The notes under the pieces: generated by a model
The model's input: the letters and a program-made list of their open reading frames with translations, nothing else
The model's database searches: none
What the model was told of the DNA's origin: nothing
Position numbers and translations under genes: made by a program
Origin: an uncultured Bacteroidota bacterium
Lineage (GTDB): Bacteria > Bacteroidota > Bacteroidia > Bacteroidales > P3
NCBI GenBank assembly: GCA_902790215.1
Contig: CADAQX010000009.1
Span: 124,001-188,000, forward strand
Length of the DNA stretch: 64,000 bases
Direction of reading: 5' to 3'
Shown here: piece after piece, positions 19,453-25,920 of the stretch
Position numbering within the stretch: the stretch's first letter is position 1
Layout: the number at the start of each line of letters is the position of its first letter

Positions 19453-19713
19453 TCAGAGAAGGCCCTTGCCTGCTTTGAACTTGGCAGCTTTCTTGGCGGC
19501 AATCTTGATTTTGGCGCCGGTGCGGGGGTTGCGGCCAGTACGTGCGGGACGGCTGACAACATCAAAAGTGCCAAAGCCCACGAGGGTGATCTTTTCACCC
19601 TTGGTGAGTTGTTCCTTTACTACATCGACATAAGCATTCAAAGCTTTTCCAGCGTCGACTTTGGTCAGACCAGCTTTCTCTGCCATTGCGGCAATCAATT
19701 CGGTTTTGTTCAT
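19453..19713 (-). CDS. HU-family DNA-binding protein
   Basis: Small nucleoid protein that bends DNA as a dimer. The 86-residue product shows the full HU pattern: MNKTELIAAMAEKAGLTK, the central VGFGTFDVVSRPARTGRNP arm motif with its intercalating proline, and the basic C-terminus. It is monocistronic, with a TATATTTG box at 19754-19761 and its own terminator. HU versus IHF subunit cannot be decided from the sequence alone; the arm sequence favours HU. Confidence 0.95.
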   Translation of the reverse strand: MNKTELIAAMAEKAGLTKVDAGKALNAYVDVVKEQLTKGEKITLVGFGTFDVVSRPARTGRNPRTGAKIKIAAKKAAKFKAGKGLL

Positions 19714-19753
19714 GGTGATAATTTTAACAGGTTAATACAACTTTTTCCGGCTG

Positions 19754-19761
19754 CAAATATA
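19754..19761 (-). promoter_or_regulatory. -7 promoter box for the HU gene
   Basis: The minus-strand TATATTTG followed by CAGCC is a perfect TAnnTTTG box, 41 bp before the HU start codon. Confidence 0.75.
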
Positions 19762-19826
19762 TACTTTTTTTTTTATTGGTTGGCATTCTTTTTTAAAATT
19801 ATTTTGTTAAAAAAAGAACCCACTGT

Positions 19827-20768
19827 TCAATATATTAATTTCCAACCTGTTATATTGCACCCTCGGAGGAAGTCGGAGATATGCATTGCTTTTTTTCCGC
19901 TGATTTGCAGATGCAAAATACTGATAAAACCACCCTTTACACCGATTTTTGCGTATGTTTTGCCATCTGTGTCCAGCTGTCCGGCAGGGCTGTCGGGAGC
20001 GGGTTCGAAACGCACTTGGAAGAGTTTGAACTGATGGGGCGTGCCAGCGGGGTCGGCCAGCTGCATGGTGGCGGCGGGATAGGGGGACAGCCCGCGGACG
20101 AAGTCGGCTATCCGGCTGCCCGGCAGGTGCCAGTCGACGGCACAGTCGGGCTTGAATATCTTGGGCGCGGCGGGCATCCCGACACCGGCGGGCTGTGGCC
20201 TGGGGGTGAGGGTGCCGGCCTCTATGCCCTCGATGGTCTGCACCACGAGGCGGCTGCCTATGGCGGCCAGCCGGTCGTGGAGGGTGCCGGCGGTGTCGTC
20301 GGGGGCAATGGGGGTGGATTGCTGCAGGAGGAGCGACCCCTCGTCGATGCGCTCGTTGAGCATGAAGGTGGTGACGCCCGTCTCGGTGTCGCCGTTGATA
20401 ATCGCCCAATTGATGGGAGCGGCGCCACGGTAGCGGGGCAGCAGGGAGGCATGGAGGTTGAAGGTGCCTCGAGGCGGCATGGCCCAGACGCTTTGGGGCA
20501 GCATGCGGAAGGCCACAACAACAAAGAGGTCGGCATTCCACGCCTTGAGCTGAGACTGGAAGAGGGGGTCGCGCAGCTTTTCGGGCTGGAGGAGCGGGAG
20601 GTTGTGGTCGAGAGCGTATTGCCCCACGGGCGAGCAGGTCATTTTGAGGCCACGGCCTGTGGGACGGTCGGGCACGGTGACCACGCCCACCACTTGGTGT
20701 CCGGCGGAGAGGATGGCCTGGAGCGACGACACGGCGAAATCGGGGGTGCCCATAAAGACTATCTTCAT
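19827..20768 (-). CDS. fmt: Methionyl-tRNA formyltransferase
   Basis: Transfers a formyl group from 10-formyl-THF to initiator Met-tRNA. The 313-residue protein starts MKIVFMGTPDFAV, has the catalytic Asn104-x-His106 pair in FNLHASLLPRYRGAAP, and Asp142 in the NERIDEG segment. The C-terminal anticodon-side domain is present. It lies between HU and the rpoN fusion, convergent with neither, and is separated from the latter by about 58 bp. Confidence 0.96.
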   Translation of the reverse strand: MKIVFMGTPDFAVSSLQAILSAGHQVVGVVTVPDRPTGRGLKMTCSPVGQYALDHNLPLLQPEKLRDPLFQSQLKAWNADLFVVVAFRMLPQSVWAMPPRGTFNLHASLLPRYRGAAPINWAIINGDTETGVTTFMLNERIDEGSLLLQQSTPIAPDDTAGTLHDRLAAIGSRLVVQTIEGIEAGTLTPRPQPAGVGMPAAPKIFKPDCAVDWHLPGSRIADFVRGLSPYPAATMQLADPAGTPHQFKLFQVRFEPAPDSPAGQLDTDGKTYAKIGVKGGFISILHLQISGKKAMHISDFLRGCNITGWKLIY

Positions 20769-20826
20769 TTTCTTGGGGGGATTATAGAGTTTATAGAGTT
20801 GATGGTATTAAAGAAGGTGATGATTT

Positions 20827-23283
20827 TTATCTGACGCGGACGCGCACTCCGGCCTTGAACTTGGAGATGTCGGGGTTGAGCTCGCGCAGCTTGGCGGCGG
20901 TGGTGTAGTTGCGCTTGGCCAGGTCGTCGAGGGTCTCGCCTTTCTTCATGGTGGCGTAGACGGGCTTGCCGCTGCGCTTGGCAGGGCTGAGGTCTTCGGG
21001 GACGATGCTTTTGTCGGCCTTGTAGACCAGTGATTCGCCTTTAGAGGGTTTGCGGATGCCGAAGTAGGTTTTGTCGAGGTAGAGTTTGCGCGTGCGGAGG
21101 GTGTAGTTGGAAAAGTCCAGTATCCATTCGGGGTCGAAAGGTTCGTACTGGAAGCGGACTTCGAAGTGGAGGTGCGGGCCTGTGGAGCGGCCTGTGCTGC
21201 CGCCCAGTCCAAGCACCTGCCCAGCGGCCACAACCTGCATAGGCTTGACATTGATTTTGGAGAGGTGTCCATAGACGGTCTCGAGCCCGTTGTAGTGGCG
21301 CACCACGACGAGGTTGCCGTAGGCACCCATGGGGCGTGCAATGCGCACCACGCCGTTGAAGGCGCAGTGGACGGGTTCGCCGGTGCGCAGACGGATGTCC
21401 ACGCCGCGGTGCGGGCGCTCCCAGCGCCAGCCGTAGGGCGAGGTGATGATGTTCTTGACGGGGAAGCAGAAGCGCTCGTTGTCTTTGAGCAGGCGTATGG
21501 TGATTTCGTCGGGCAGGGAGTCCATGGAGAGGTTTACCAGCCGCACATGGGCGCCCGAGAGGTTACGCCCGTACCAGAGGGAGGAGGGCGGCGGCAAGGT
21601 GGAGTTGTACATGACGTCGATGAGTTCGTCGCCGGCGGCCAGGGCTGTGTCGATGGCGGTGGGCTCGGGGGCAGGCTCGTGGATTTCAAGAGCCGGACGG
21701 TTGGGGCGTTTGTCGTTTTTCTTTCCTCCCTGGCTCTGCAAGCGGCTTTTTGCCTGTCCCTCGCGGATGCGCGCATTGAGGAGCGAGTCGTAGTAGCTCT
21801 CTTTGGCGGGCTGCTGGGCGGAGAGGGTGCCAGCCACGGCAAGCAGGAGAATGAGCACCTTGAGCTTGCGGCGCAGACGGCCGACGGGGATGCCCAGCAT
21901 GTCGCGGTATTTGGCCACGGTGCGTCGGGCAACGGGATAGCCTTTCTGGCTGAGAAGGTCGGCGAGAGCCTCGTCGGAGAGCGGATGGCGCTTGTCCTCG
22001 GCGTCGACGGCGGCCTGGAGTTCGCGGCGCACGGCCTCGGTGGCGACTTCTTCGCCCTCATCGTTGACGATGGCTTGCGAGAAGCAGTCTTTGAGAAGGA
22101 AGGTGCCAAATTCGGTCTGCACGTATTTGCTGTTCACCACACGGGAGACTGTGGAGATGTCGTATCCCGTGAGGGCGGCCACATCCTTTTGCAGCAGGGG
22201 GCGCATCTCGGAGCTGTCGCCGGTGAGGAAGAAGCGGTATTGTTTCTTCATGATTACCTGCATGACACGCAGCATGGCGGCATGACGTTGGCGGAGCGTG
22301 TCGACCAAGAGGTCGGCGCTTTCGTTGCGGGTGCGGAGGAAGTCGAGAGCCTGTTTGTCGGCGGGCGAGGGGTTGTCGATGGCGGAGAGCTGCTGCAGGA
22401 GGTCTTGGTAATATTCAGCCTTCTGGATCTGCGGCAGGAAGCGGTCGTTGACGGAGAGGGTGAGGGTGTCGTCATGACGGGTGACGGTGAAGTCGGGGAT
22501 GATGTAGCGAGCCTGCGGGGTGTCGTTCTCCACGGCGCCGGGCTTGGGGTTGAGGCGGCGTATACGCGCTATGGCGGCATGGAGCTGGTCGTCGGTGAGC
22601 GAGAGTTCCTCCATGACACGGCTGTAGTTGTGGCGGGCGAAAGGCTCGAAGCACCGGTCTACAACATCGACAGCCCAACGGGTGGCGTCGTCCTGTGTGT
22701 CGGCACGGTGGAGCTGGAGGGAGAGGCATTCCTGCAGGTTGCGGGCGGCAATGCCTGGAGGGTCCATCTGCTGTACGAGGCGGAGGACTTCCTCCACCTC
22801 CTGCGGCGACACCTCTATGCCCTGGGTGAATGCCAAGTCGTTGGCCAGGAGGTCGAGGCTGCGGCCGACATAGCCGGCATCGTCGAGGCTGCCGACAATT
22901 TCCTGTGCAATGGCGCGCTGGCGGTCGTCGAGGTTGCGCATGGAGAGCTGGTCCATGAGGTGGTCGAAGAACGACTCCTCGGAGATGAAGACTGCCTCGC
23001 GGGCGTCCTGGTTGCGGTCGCGCTCCTGCCGCTCGCGGTAGCTGTAGTCGTCATCGTCGGTTTCGGCGCCTATCATGTCGTAGGCGGGGGTGCCTGTTTC
23101 GGGCAATGGCTCAAGGCGGTCGCTGTTGTCGGTGGAGACTTCGAGGATGGGGTTCTTTTCCACCTCCTCTTTGAGACGCTGCTCCAGTTCCATGACAGGC
23201 ATCTGTATCAGCTGCATCAGCAGCAGCTGCTGCGGCGACAGCCTCTGCTGCATTTTCATGGTCTGATGTTGTCCGCTTTTCAT
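20827..23283 (-). CDS. Fused RNA polymerase sigma-54 factor (RpoN) - M23 metallopeptidase - LysM protein
   Basis: One uninterrupted 818-codon frame. Residues 1-474 are a complete sigma-54: Gln-rich activator region I (LSPQQLLLMQLIQMP), acidic region II (about 50-95), core-binding and helix-turn-helix regions, and the RpoN box ARRTVAKYRD (452-461). Directly after, RRKLK (471-475) and VLILLLAVAGTLSAQ (476-490) read as a signal peptide or membrane anchor. Next comes an M23 domain with zinc ligands His625/Asp629 (HRGVD) and His704-x-His706 (PHLHF), then a LysM-like module (about 773-818). No RpoN stop codon exists. An in-frame ATG at 21900 (Met462), inside the RpoN box, could start a separate M23 precursor. 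Either a real membrane-tethered sigma factor, two overlapping in-frame genes, or a consensus error; the sequence alone cannot decide. Confidence 0.85.
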   Translation of the reverse strand: MKSGQHQTMKMQQRLSPQQLLLMQLIQMPVMELEQRLKEEVEKNPILEVSTDNSDRLEPLPETGTPAYDMIGAETDDDDYSYRERQERDRNQDAREAVFISEESFFDHLMDQLSMRNLDDRQRAIAQEIVGSLDDAGYVGRSLDLLANDLAFTQGIEVSPQEVEEVLRLVQQMDPPGIAARNLQECLSLQLHRADTQDDATRWAVDVVDRCFEPFARHNYSRVMEELSLTDDQLHAAIARIRRLNPKPGAVENDTPQARYIIPDFTVTRHDDTLTLSVNDRFLPQIQKAEYYQDLLQQLSAIDNPSPADKQALDFLRTRNESADLLVDTLRQRHAAMLRVMQVIMKKQYRFFLTGDSSEMRPLLQKDVAALTGYDISTVSRVVNSKYVQTEFGTFLLKDCFSQAIVNDEGEEVATEAVRRELQAAVDAEDKRHPLSDEALADLLSQKGYPVARRTVAKYRDMLGIPVGRLRRKLKVLILLLAVAGTLSAQQPAKESYYDSLLNARIREGQAKSRLQSQGGKKNDKRPNRPALEIHEPAPEPTAIDTALAAGDELIDVMYNSTLPPPSSLWYGRNLSGAHVRLVNLSMDSLPDEITIRLLKDNERFCFPVKNIITSPYGWRWERPHRGVDIRLRTGEPVHCAFNGVVRIARPMGAYGNLVVVRHYNGLETVYGHLSKINVKPMQVVAAGQVLGLGGSTGRSTGPHLHFEVRFQYEPFDPEWILDFSNYTLRTRKLYLDKTYFGIRKPSKGESLVYKADKSIVPEDLSPAKRSGKPVYATMKKGETLDDLAKRNYTTAAKLRELNPDISKFKAGVRVRVR

Positions 23284-23336
23284 AGTCGGGTGTTTAGGGG
23301 TTGAGGAGGGATGGTAGCAATCAGGATAAATAACTG

Positions 23337-24782
23337 CTATTTGCCAAAATTATTATCCGGGGGCTGAAAAAAGTTGTCCTTGAAGTTGAGCAGGTAGACG
23401 CGGCCGGTGGCACGGGTGACGGCGGTGTAGAGCCACCGGAGGTATTCCCTGTCTACCATTTCGTCGGTGAGATAGCCTTGGTCGATGACCACGGTGCCCC
23501 ACTGGCCGCCCTGTGTCTTGTGGCAGGTGAGGGCATAGGAGAACTTGACCTGCAAGGCGTTGTAGTAGGGGTTCTGTTTCACGGCACGCAGCCGGTCCTG
23601 CTTGCGCGGCATGTCGGCATAGTCCTCCATGACGGCCTCGAAGAGCTGCTGCGACTCGGCGGCGGTGAGCGAGGGGGACTCGCTGTGGAGGGTTTCGAGG
23701 AGCAGTTTGCAGTCGTGGGCCGGGAGGTCGGGGTAGTCGACAAAGCGCAGGGTGGCATCGGCGAAATGGAAGCCATAGAGTTCCTGGTGGTTGCGGAGGC
23801 TCTGCACCTCGGCTATGTCGCCGTTGGCAATGAAGCCTATGCCGCTTTCGGGCTCAAGCCAGTAGTAGTTGTTTTTCACCACCATGAGGTGGTCGCCGGC
23901 GTTCACCTCCTCCTCGCGGAAGAGGATGCGGTTGCGTATCTCCTGGTTGAAGAGGTTGGCCCGCTTGTTGCTGCGGGTGACAATAACCATCTGCTCGATG
24001 CCGTTGCTGCTGTACTCCCGGTTGAGAATTTCCTCTAATTCGCCGCCCTGCAGCCTTACGACATCGTCGCAGTCCTGCAGGTCGAACAGGGGCATGGCGG
24101 GCTCGTCGCCGGGGGCGAGGAGCGCTATCTGCCGGCGCAGGAGGGTGGCGTTGAGCAGGATGCCGGAGAGGTGCTGCTGCCGCACCACTTCGGTGAGTTC
24201 GCTGTGGTGCACCGTGAGCCGGAGTACCCGGCCGAGATAGGCAGGGTCGAGAGCTGGGCTTTGGGTGGAGCCTACGGGCGGGAGCTGGGCGGTGTCTCCA
24301 ATCAGCATGAGGCGGCAATGGCTGCCCTCGCCGACATAGTCCACGAGGTCTTCGAGCAGGTTGTGGCGGTCGAGGACCATGTCGTCGCCCTGCCCTATCA
24401 TGGAGGCCTCGTCGACAATAAAGAGTGTGTAGGAATGCTTGTTGAACGCCCGTGCCATGCGCATGATGCCGCTGCCGTCGGTGACGGTCTGGTATATCTT
24501 GCGGTGGATGGTGAAGGCGGGCTGGCCGGAATAGGAGGCCAGCACTTTGGCTGCCCGTCCGGTGGGAGCCAGCAGGACAGTCTTGATGTGCAGCGCAGGG
24601 GCTGAGCGCACCAGGGCGCTTACCAGCGAAGTCTTGCCCGTGCCGGCATAGCCCCGCAGGAGAAAAGCGGCGGCAGGGTCGGGGTCGTAGAGGAAGCGCA
24701 CCATCTCTTCGCACGCCGCGACCTGCATGGCTGTGGGGTGGTGGGGAAAGTGCGACAGGATATGGTTTACGACACGCTGCAT
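23337..24782 (-). CDS. RecD/Dda-like superfamily 1B DNA helicase
   Basis: Single-subunit ATP-dependent 5'-3' helicase of the RecD2/Dda type, probably in DNA repair or replication restart. The 481-residue product has Walker A GYAGTGKT (44-51), DEAS (motif II), GDTAQLPPVG (motif III), the SH3-like insertion region and the C-terminal ALTCHKTQGGQW and YTAVTRA motifs. It lacks the long N-terminal region of full RecD2. Located downstream of secG, behind a terminator. Confidence 0.9.
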   Translation of the reverse strand: MQRVVNHILSHFPHHPTAMQVAACEEMVRFLYDPDPAAAFLLRGYAGTGKTSLVSALVRSAPALHIKTVLLAPTGRAAKVLASYSGQPAFTIHRKIYQTVTDGSGIMRMARAFNKHSYTLFIVDEASMIGQGDDMVLDRHNLLEDLVDYVGEGSHCRLMLIGDTAQLPPVGSTQSPALDPAYLGRVLRLTVHHSELTEVVRQQHLSGILLNATLLRRQIALLAPGDEPAMPLFDLQDCDDVVRLQGGELEEILNREYSSNGIEQMVIVTRSNKRANLFNQEIRNRILFREEEVNAGDHLMVVKNNYYWLEPESGIGFIANGDIAEVQSLRNHQELYGFHFADATLRFVDYPDLPAHDCKLLLETLHSESPSLTAAESQQLFEAVMEDYADMPRKQDRLRAVKQNPYYNALQVKFSYALTCHKTQGGQWGTVVIDQGYLTDEMVDREYLRWLYTAVTRATGRVYLLNFKDNFFQPPDNNFGK

Positions 24783-24797
24783 GGCTGTTTATATAGT

Positions 24798-24838
24798 AAA
24801 AGGGAGGTCCGCCCACTGAGGCGAATCTCCCCTTTTTG
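24798..24838 (-). terminator. Terminator of secG
   Basis: AAAAGGGAG and CTCCCCTTTT bracket a second stem CGCC/GGCG. T runs follow on both strands; orientation and position fit the end of the minus-strand secG transcript, although the helicase start lies only 15 bp further on. Confidence 0.75.
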
Positions 24839-24852
24839 CTTGGTATGGGGTG

Positions 24853-25197
24853 TTACTCGGCCTCGGGGGCAGGAGCAACATCGGTGGCTACGGGAGCCGT
24901 GGCGGCAGGAGTGGGAGTAACACTCTTGGCGGCAGTGACATCGACCTCGGTGTTGAGGTTGCCTTCCACGCTGTGGCGCGGGATGGCCATCGTGGCAGCC
25001 AGAGAGAGAACAACCAGAGCAATAGCCAGTCCCCAGGTAATCTTCTCTATAGTTTCGGTGGTCTTGCGGACACCCAACACTTGGTTGGGGGCAGAAAAGT
25101 TGGCAGCAAGACCGCCACCTTTGGAGTTCTGAACTAATACGGCAAGAGCCAGAGCGACACATACAAGCAGGATAAGAATGACAATAAATGTGTACAT
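24853..25197 (-). CDS. secG: Preprotein translocase subunit SecG
   Basis: Small partner of SecYE in the Sec translocon. The 114-residue product has two transmembrane segments (about 2-22 and 54-72) separated by the conserved cytoplasmic loop NSKGGGLAANFS. The tail after residue 75 is Ala/Pro/Thr/Val-rich and unusually long, a feature of Bacteroidota SecG. It is directly downstream of the TPR-like gene, a neighbour pairing common in the order. Confidence 0.93.
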   Translation of the reverse strand: MYTFIVILILLVCVALALAVLVQNSKGGGLAANFSAPNQVLGVRKTTETIEKITWGLAIALVVLSLAATMAIPRHSVEGNLNTEVDVTAAKSVTPTPAATAPVATDVAPAPEAE

Positions 25198-25220
25198 TGT
25201 TTGATTGTTATTATTATTTA

Positions 25221-25883
25221 TTACTTTTTATTTTCGTTTATCTGCGCCTTTAACTCGGCAATTCGAACTGCAAAAGTACTACTTTTTTCGGGATTATTGA
25301 CCATTAATTTTTCATAGACAGCGGCAGCCTGTGCCAATTTCCCCTGCTTTTCAAGTATAACAGCAAGAGTTTCAGTTTCTAATATCCCTGAAGGCAAAAT
25401 GCTTTTTTTGGCAAGTTCCTGGACTGACACGTTGTCGAAAGTATCGAAATCGGGCACTATTCCGCCATCTTTTTCAAGAAAATTGGACAGAATGACGCTC
25501 TTGGGAGCCGTTTTGAACGAAACCTCCTGGTATTCATTAATCTCCTTCAACACATCGAAGTTTTCGGGCTGCTGGGGCTTGGCTTCGGCGACAGGCGGCC
25601 GGGGGACGGCGGGGGCAGCCGGGGCCTCGGGCTGACGGGTGGGGGCTGCGCCGTTCTTCACCAGCTCATACAGCCGTCCGGCATCCTCGACATAGAGCGA
25701 CACCTGGGGCAGGGTCTGCCGCTCCCACAGGGGGGCTCCGTTGGCCTTGTCGGCCAGAAGCGACATCACCTGCAGCGGGGCACTGAAAGGATACCTCTCT
25801 TTTTCGTGCCTGAGGGCCTCCCACTCGTCGGGTGTGAGGGTGCCGGGATGCTCCAAAGCATGAGCAAAACTGTTTTTATCCAT
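25221..25883 (-). CDS. Conserved Bacteroidales protein with TPR-like C-terminus
   Basis: The 220-residue protein has a globular N-terminal half (about 1-70), a Pro/Ala-rich linker (about 82-112) and a C-terminal helical pair (ETETLAVILEKQGKLAQAAAVYEKLMV) that reads as one tetratricopeptide repeat. The ATG at 25883 was preferred to a TTG 12 nt upstream. Its fixed place before secG in Bacteroidales suggests a link to envelope biogenesis, but no function is known. Confidence 0.75.
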   Translation of the reverse strand: MDKNSFAHALEHPGTLTPDEWEALRHEKERYPFSAPLQVMSLLADKANGAPLWERQTLPQVSLYVEDAGRLYELVKNGAAPTRQPEAPAAPAVPRPPVAEAKPQQPENFDVLKEINEYQEVSFKTAPKSVILSNFLEKDGGIVPDFDTFDNVSVQELAKKSILPSGILETETLAVILEKQGKLAQAAAVYEKLMVNNPEKSSTFAVRIAELKAQINENKK

Positions 25884-25920
25884 ATACCTTAACAACTTTT
25901 ATTACCACTAATTGCGAATG

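Follow-up and report, generated by a model that had tools for sequence, protein, structure and literature searches.

A sigma-54 gene that runs in frame into a predicted exported M23 peptidase across most of a genus of Bacteroidales

Results

A sigma-54 and an M23 peptidase share one stop-free reading frame

The stretch of DNA analysed here (hereafter the window) comprises 64,000 nucleotides from an uncultured member of the Bacteroidales. A close-packed run of minus-strand genes occupies positions 19453-25895 of the window, and within it lies a single open reading frame that encodes sigma-54, a signal-peptide-like segment, an M23 peptidase and a LysM-like end (Table 1). The small frame at the downstream end of the run is presumably an HU-like gene, a name that we give it from its sequence. 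A match to fmt was found at 80 of the 85 fused loci and at all 31 unfused loci of the genus described below.

Table 1. Features of the fusion locus and its neighbours (positions are those of the window; residues are those of the fusion).
Feature	Position	Strand	Basis or remark
ORF of no assigned function	25221-25895	-	
secG	24853-25197	-	
PIF1/UvrD-like helicase	23337-24782	-	53 bp gap to fusion
Sigma-54 / signal peptide / M23 / LysM fusion ORF, 818 aa	20827..23283	-	stop-free frame, Pfam
Sigma54_AID (activator-interacting region I), residues 5-49	23137..23271	-	PF00309, E 2.3e-11
Sigma-54 core-binding domain (Sigma54_CBD), residues 97-292	22408..22995	-	PF04963, E 3.8e-53
Sigma-54 DNA-binding domain (Sigma54_DBD), residues 315-473	21865..22341	-	PF04552, E 4.8e-46
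RpoN box ARRTVAKYRD, residues 452-461	21901..21930	-	sequence
Sigma-54 C-terminal tail, putatively doubling as signal peptide: basic RLRRKLK (469-475), hydrophobic VLILLLAVAGTL (476-487), SA	21817..21879	-	
Predicted signal peptidase I site between A489 and Q490 (Bacteroidetes Q-rule)	21814..21819	-	AQ conservation
Peptidase_M23, residues 624-718 (His625, Asp629; His706 in HLH)	21130..21414	-	PF01551, E 3.8e-31
LysM-like module near C-terminus	20863..20946	-	PF01476, E 3.4e-4, at cut-off
fmt	19827-20768	-	58 bp gap to fusion
HU-like ORF (presumed)	19453-19713	-	

As judged from its sequence, the sigma-54 part is complete, with region I, the core-binding and DNA-binding domains and the RpoN box all present. 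Residues 1-474 of the fusion align to residues 1-476 of a 477-residue solved sigma-54 chain, and the hydrophobic segment therefore begins where a normal sigma-54 ends. A Pfam scan of 32 fusions recovered Sigma54_AID in 31 and both the core-binding and the DNA-binding domain in all 32, and in 76 of the 86 fusions examined (85 loci of this genus together with locus L194 from a second genus) the box is ARRTVAKYR with E or D as the next residue, the remainder being near variants. An earlier note on this DNA had read a complete RpoN running through its box and, without a stop, into the peptidase; the minus-strand frame, the Pfam matches and the alignment to the solved chain bear this out.

The enzyme part is intact and active-looking. 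An M23 fold is supported for the peptidase half, and the three zinc ligands named in the earlier note (His625, Asp629 and His706) are present and invariant across 32 aligned fusions; HxGVD or HxGTD together with GPHLHFE occurred in all 86, leaving the M23 zinc motifs HxxxD and HxH intact. The LysM module proposed alongside them is borderline: its match falls exactly on the Pfam cut-off (20.9 bits with the C-terminal 97 residues scanned alone), and E 0.001 was reached in 11 of 32 scanned fusions. In an AlphaFold2 model the last 48 residues had block pLDDT values of 77-87. Since the scores for the whole fusion were middling (mean pLDDT 68.4, pTM 0.37), we made no use of the placing of its domains.

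The fusion is conserved across most of the genus

We then surveyed 120 genomes of the genus, of which 116 gave a sigma-54 locus (one locus per genome). The two parts were fused in one stop-free frame in 85 and unfused in 31, where rpoN is followed by a stop or a change of frame, and the remaining four genomes had no sigma-54 match. Alignment in one piece was obtained for 78 of the 85 fused loci, the window included, with relatives ranging from 81 to 48% identity; for the other seven (L089, L104, L106, L107, L108, L111 and L112) the two parts gave separate alignments, with 41-49% identity over sigma-54. With 85 of 116 loci sharing the frame, the fusion is biological and conserved, beyond what chance would give. 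The earlier note had considered that a stop was lost by error, in which case close relatives should carry a stop and a base should be missing here; the nearest relatives, 80-81% identical, are fused too. Among named records, the fusion was found in Candidatus Colimorpha merdihippi and in Bacteroidales bins from the rumen and other gut sources, and it could be argued for an assembly or sequencing artefact that most of these records are metagenome bins. Yet an open frame in 85 genomes, one-piece relatives at identities down to 48% and, by their record titles, an origin in several projects leave such an artefact scarcely credible.

In the unfused loci the peptidase is usually close at hand: 29 of the 31 have an M23 match downstream of rpoN, no more than 103 codons away in 27 and further off in L096 and L109, while L110 and L117 lack such a match within the locus. 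At two unfused loci, L115 and L116, rpoN is broken or partial; in L115 (genome G094) it is split into two frames, with a 95-residue open frame around the RpoN box.

Beyond the genus, a draw of 159 genomes of the family (partly of the same genus) gave one further genus with a frame of fusion length, which was confirmed as a fusion in L194, so that RpoN and M23 co-occur in one frame at 85 loci of this genus and in a second genus of the family. Among the 20 loci taken from the family and the order, 19 were unfused. The nearest tree row to L194 (L206) is unfused, and so are L207 and L208, family members with an M23 gene close behind rpoN; the long frames of L195-L199 proved to be upstream extensions and not fusions. 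An order-wide search with a fusion profile covered 393 genomes, only two of them from this genus, and among the matches listed in order of score only the window's genome had the whole stop-free fusion, with genome G121 matching both parts across an intervening stop. On a quick-search tree of 135 rows, built from the sigma-54 part, the fused label changes at least five times, at least three of them forced by starred branches, and these changes fit gain or loss alike.

The junction resembles a signal peptide with a conserved AQ site

The order at the junction is RpoN box, MLGIPVGRLRRKLK, VLILLLAVAGTLSA and QQPAKESYYDS. By sequence, a hydrophobic segment was present in all 86 fusions, its core beginning 12-16 residues past the RpoN box, and the net charge before the core was positive in most. 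Behind the core, [AGS]Q occurred in 86 of 86 fusions and already in 50% of shuffles, which makes AQ the informative count: it was found in 83 of 86 fusions versus 21% of shuffles (counted over the 20 residues from where the most hydrophobic 9-mer ends). The A and Q columns are each at least 90% conserved across 32 fusions. All such junction counts come from phylogenetically clustered fusions, are inflated by shared ancestry and do not amount to independent events. Signal peptidase I substrates of Bacteroidetes are reported to carry Gln at +1 in 71% of cases on average, the Q-rule (PMC5837995). With its basic n-region, hydrophobic core, small residue at -1 and Gln at +1, the junction fits a Sec and signal peptidase I substrate of this phylum, and the peptidase half looks exported, as the earlier note had it.

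In the sigma-54 tail, the R[RK] pair is followed by a glutamate in 27 of the 31 unfused genus loci versus 1 of the 86 fusions, a loss that is expected if the tail turned into a signal-peptide n-region; the glutamate is also mostly missing from unfused members of the family and order (present in 5 of 19).

The earlier note went further and pictured a standing chain, with sigma-54 at the inner membrane face and the peptidase at the wall. Such an uncleaved type II membrane protein, which would form a permanent link between peptidoglycan and transcription, would agree with the continuous frame, with the positive charge before the core and with a helix modelled by AlphaFold2 over residues 468-484. 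The core, however, has a median length of 11 residues by segment score (range 6-25), which is little for an anchor; the same scoring gave a median of 14 (range 9-33, some mis-picked) for the signal peptides of unfused M23 proteins and 19 residues for the first SecG helix. A short signal peptide with a conserved AQ site makes a permanent link less likely than a long anchor would, and in an uncleaved chain the DNA-reading helix would sit almost at the membrane. We regard this arrangement as quite improbable.

Sigma-54 probably comes from the long chain

We examined copy number, internal starts and frameshifting. The window's genome has one sigma-54 match. So does each same-genus genome within the family draw, the part of the genus that this count covers, except G094 (two, from its broken frame) and G060 and G061 (none). 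As the sigma-54 frame has no stop, any ribosome that finishes sigma-54 runs on into the peptidase, and together with the single match this makes the long chain the likely source of sigma-54. Programmed frameshifting to a free sigma-54 was rejected: no conserved stop was found in the +1 frame, where the first stop lies 1 to 163 codons past the RpoN box and is absent in 2 of 86 fusions, or in the -1 frame, where it is absent within 600 bases in 15 of 86.

The peptidase might instead be made mainly from starts inside the sigma-54 tail, with the long chain minor or quickly degraded. The earlier note had proposed an in-frame ATG at Met462 for this role; the codon is present (21898-21900), but Met occupies the position in only 23 of 86 fusions, and we rejected it as a general rule; in other subclades a GTG would have to serve. 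Between the RpoN box and the first core residues, 44 of the 85 genus fusions have an ATG and 41 have none, 6 lack both ATG and GTG, and 3 lack ATG, GTG and TTG, leaving 82 with at least one of the three codons in frame close to the junction. At one junction valine of the fusions GTG is used more often than expected (48/67, expected 34.0, z 3.7), which favours internal starts, and it is used about as expected at the same valine of unfused loci (15/38, expected 14.0); two other valine columns exceed the GTG share of the junction (0.82 and 0.77 versus 0.72).

The unfused M23 genes of the genus also bear on this question. In a first scan, in which some were mis-scored, 17 of 29 had an ATG before the core and 12 had none; a second scan gave ATG in 17 of 29 (a partly different set), only GTG or TTG in 10 and none of the three in 2. 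The core was mis-picked in a few rows, an ATG being scored for L114 and L116 in the first scan only and for L084 and L082 in the second only; in L082 the ATG can lie only inside the core, and L115 is the broken rpoN locus. L081, L086, L088, L092-L095, L097 and L099 have an unfused M23 gene close behind rpoN with GTG or TTG but no ATG before the core. Non-ATG starts are thus plausible for unfused M23 genes, and probably serve several of them, which again favours internal starts in the fusions. Since unfused genes so often lack an ATG, we dropped its absence from fusions as proof of synthesis as a single chain.

Internal starts may provide extra peptidase. They would add peptidase only and no separate sigma-54, because the sigma-54 frame has no stop. 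With no start position common to all fusions, and with no conserved frameshift stop, which means that the long chain must still supply sigma-54, we think it improbable that internal initiation is the main route.

Activator and promoter sites speak for a working sigma-54

We found one strong match to a sigma-54 activator in the window's genome (L187:1468-2727), an AAA+ protein with GAFTGA, lid and HTH_8. It has no sensor domain, only AAA+ and a Fis-type HTH, an architecture that we take to resemble that of PspF. At E 1e-30, at least one activator was present in 110 of 120 genus genomes.

Exact -24/-12 sites numbered 7 in the window's genome versus 1 for a reversed-pattern control. Only two avoid overlap with other open frames; one lies 44 bp upstream of a Clp_N/AAA ATPase gene, the other 107 bp upstream of an Hsp20 gene (the clp and hsp20 loci L218 and L219, compared with L221-L271 in relatives). 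The site in L214 lies 169 bp before a 389-residue ORF and opposite open frames, and those in L215, L216, L217 and L220 lie inside same-strand open frames. Allowing at most one mismatch, a site preceded hsp20 at 10 of the 22 loci with enough upstream DNA (fused 6/10, unfused 3/9, no sigma-54 match 1/3) and the clp gene at 13 of 28 (fused 7/15, unfused 5/9, no sigma-54 match 1/4), and controls inside the gene and on the opposite strand gave 0 for both genes. These sites speak for a live sigma-54 with what looks like a heat-shock-like regulon in these Bacteroidales. Being alike in fused and unfused genomes, they provide no argument for a role of the fusion.

For the four genomes without a sigma-54 match (G007, G060, G061 and G119) we did not accept a loss of sigma-54, as all four keep an activator and their completeness is 73-93%. 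In G007, hsp20 and clp each still have an exact -24/-12 site upstream, and an assembly gap is likely there.

That promoter sites do not differ with fusion is also what would be seen if the fusion were neutral and locked in. The stop would have been lost and the sigma-54 tail would have become the signal peptide of the peptidase; signal peptidase and routine clearance would then separate the parts into two independent proteins with no regulatory meaning, and the fusion would persist because the tail now does two jobs. The ordinary make-up of the signal peptide agrees with this, and so does an M23 gene that already stands downstream of rpoN in most unfused loci of the genus and in L207 and L208. 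It leaves unexplained why most of the genus tolerates a tail that should draw sigma-54 to the membrane, and why a second fusion exists in another genus, although neither is strong evidence of function. We consider this neutral course unlikely, if a serious contender.

Discussion

A polyprotein that signal peptidase I may divide

The best explanation in our judgement, and one that we hold to be rather probable, is that the fusion is a polyprotein that signal peptidase I divides into an M23 peptidase in the periplasm and a sigma-54 left at the membrane by a hydrophobic tail. Its observed basis is the stop-free frame, its conservation, the intact domains, the signal-peptide features and the single sigma-54 match. 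The genome's only detected sigma-54 gene would thereby encode a polyprotein. Ribosomes would pass from the basic C-terminus of sigma-54, serving as n-region, into the short hydrophobic core and on into the peptidase, and the chain would insert so that sigma-54 stays in the cytoplasm while the peptidase lies beyond the membrane. Cleavage between A489 and Q490 would free the M23 enzyme into the periplasm, its new N-terminal Gln being cyclised under the Q-rule. The features that suggest this cleavage would be kept equally if the peptidase had a separate start.

What is left of the signal peptide would remain on sigma-54 as a hydrophobic tail, 12-16 residues away from the helix that reads DNA. With the tail so near, sigma-54 should be kept at the membrane, away from promoters, until it is cut a second time. 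RseP clears spent signal peptides, and by analogy with this clearing and with the release of the sigma factor IutY (see below) we propose that the second, intramembrane cut would free sigma-54, most simply through an S2P protease of the RseP kind; the window's genome encodes an M50 (S2P family) protease in a 492-residue frame. Membrane insertion, the first cut, the tethering and the second cut with release of sigma-54 are all steps that we infer. Whether the arrangement acts as a lock, with sigma-54 free only after export of the peptidase, cleavage by signal peptidase and then an intramembrane cut of the leftover, is a more tentative matter, and we would sooner doubt such a lock than count on it. 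If it existed, the genes for the Clp-type ATPase and Hsp20 would report Sec export, membrane proteolysis or wall growth.

Were the polyprotein model true, export and wall synthesis would be coupled to transcription in a new way. The 85 fused and 31 unfused loci provide natural controls within one genus.

Comparison with known systems

Sigma-54 is known to be soluble and to be regulated chiefly by activator ATPases. Our literature search found no description of a tethered or peptidase-fused sigma-54, in agreement with the earlier note, which knew of no sigma-54 with a peptidase domain, and nothing relevant on RpoN regulons of Bacteroides. The fusion is like canonical RpoN in its three Pfam regions, its RpoN box and its near full-length match to solved sigma-54 chains, and differs in that its C-terminus has no stop and runs on into what appears to be a signal peptide and an exported enzyme. 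It shares the M23 domain with its His/Asp/His motif, and also its LysM-like end, with M23 peptidoglycan peptidases (Csd1-Csd2, ShyA, MepM and DipM among the listed relatives); unlike other M23 enzymes, it draws its signal peptide from the end of sigma-54 and not from its own N-terminus.

Polyproteins cut by signal peptidase include the cytochrome b-c1 precursor of Bradyrhizobium, on which our literature search turned up nothing, and the flavivirus capsid-prM. These resemble the fusion in having a cytoplasmic part, an internal signal, an exported part and one signal peptidase cut. To our knowledge neither contains a transcription factor, and the present case, if true, would be a bacterial polyprotein split by signal peptidase that does.

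The closest parallels for a tethered sigma factor lie in the ECF group. IutY of Pseudomonas putida is an ECF sigma factor that is reported to be freed by Prc and RseP (PMC8999054). IutY and SCO4117/ECF52 are described as joining a sigma factor to a C-terminal membrane part, with proteolytic release in IutY and an expected release in the other, and as ECF factors with anti-sigma, sensor or binding domains (PMC8999054). The fusion differs from them in that its sigma factor is sigma-54, from a separate protein family, and that a segment like a signal peptide connects it to an enzyme that looks active. Membrane-tethered sigma factors are thus already known in the ECF group, and a sigma-54 with an exported peptidase would be a new variation on them.
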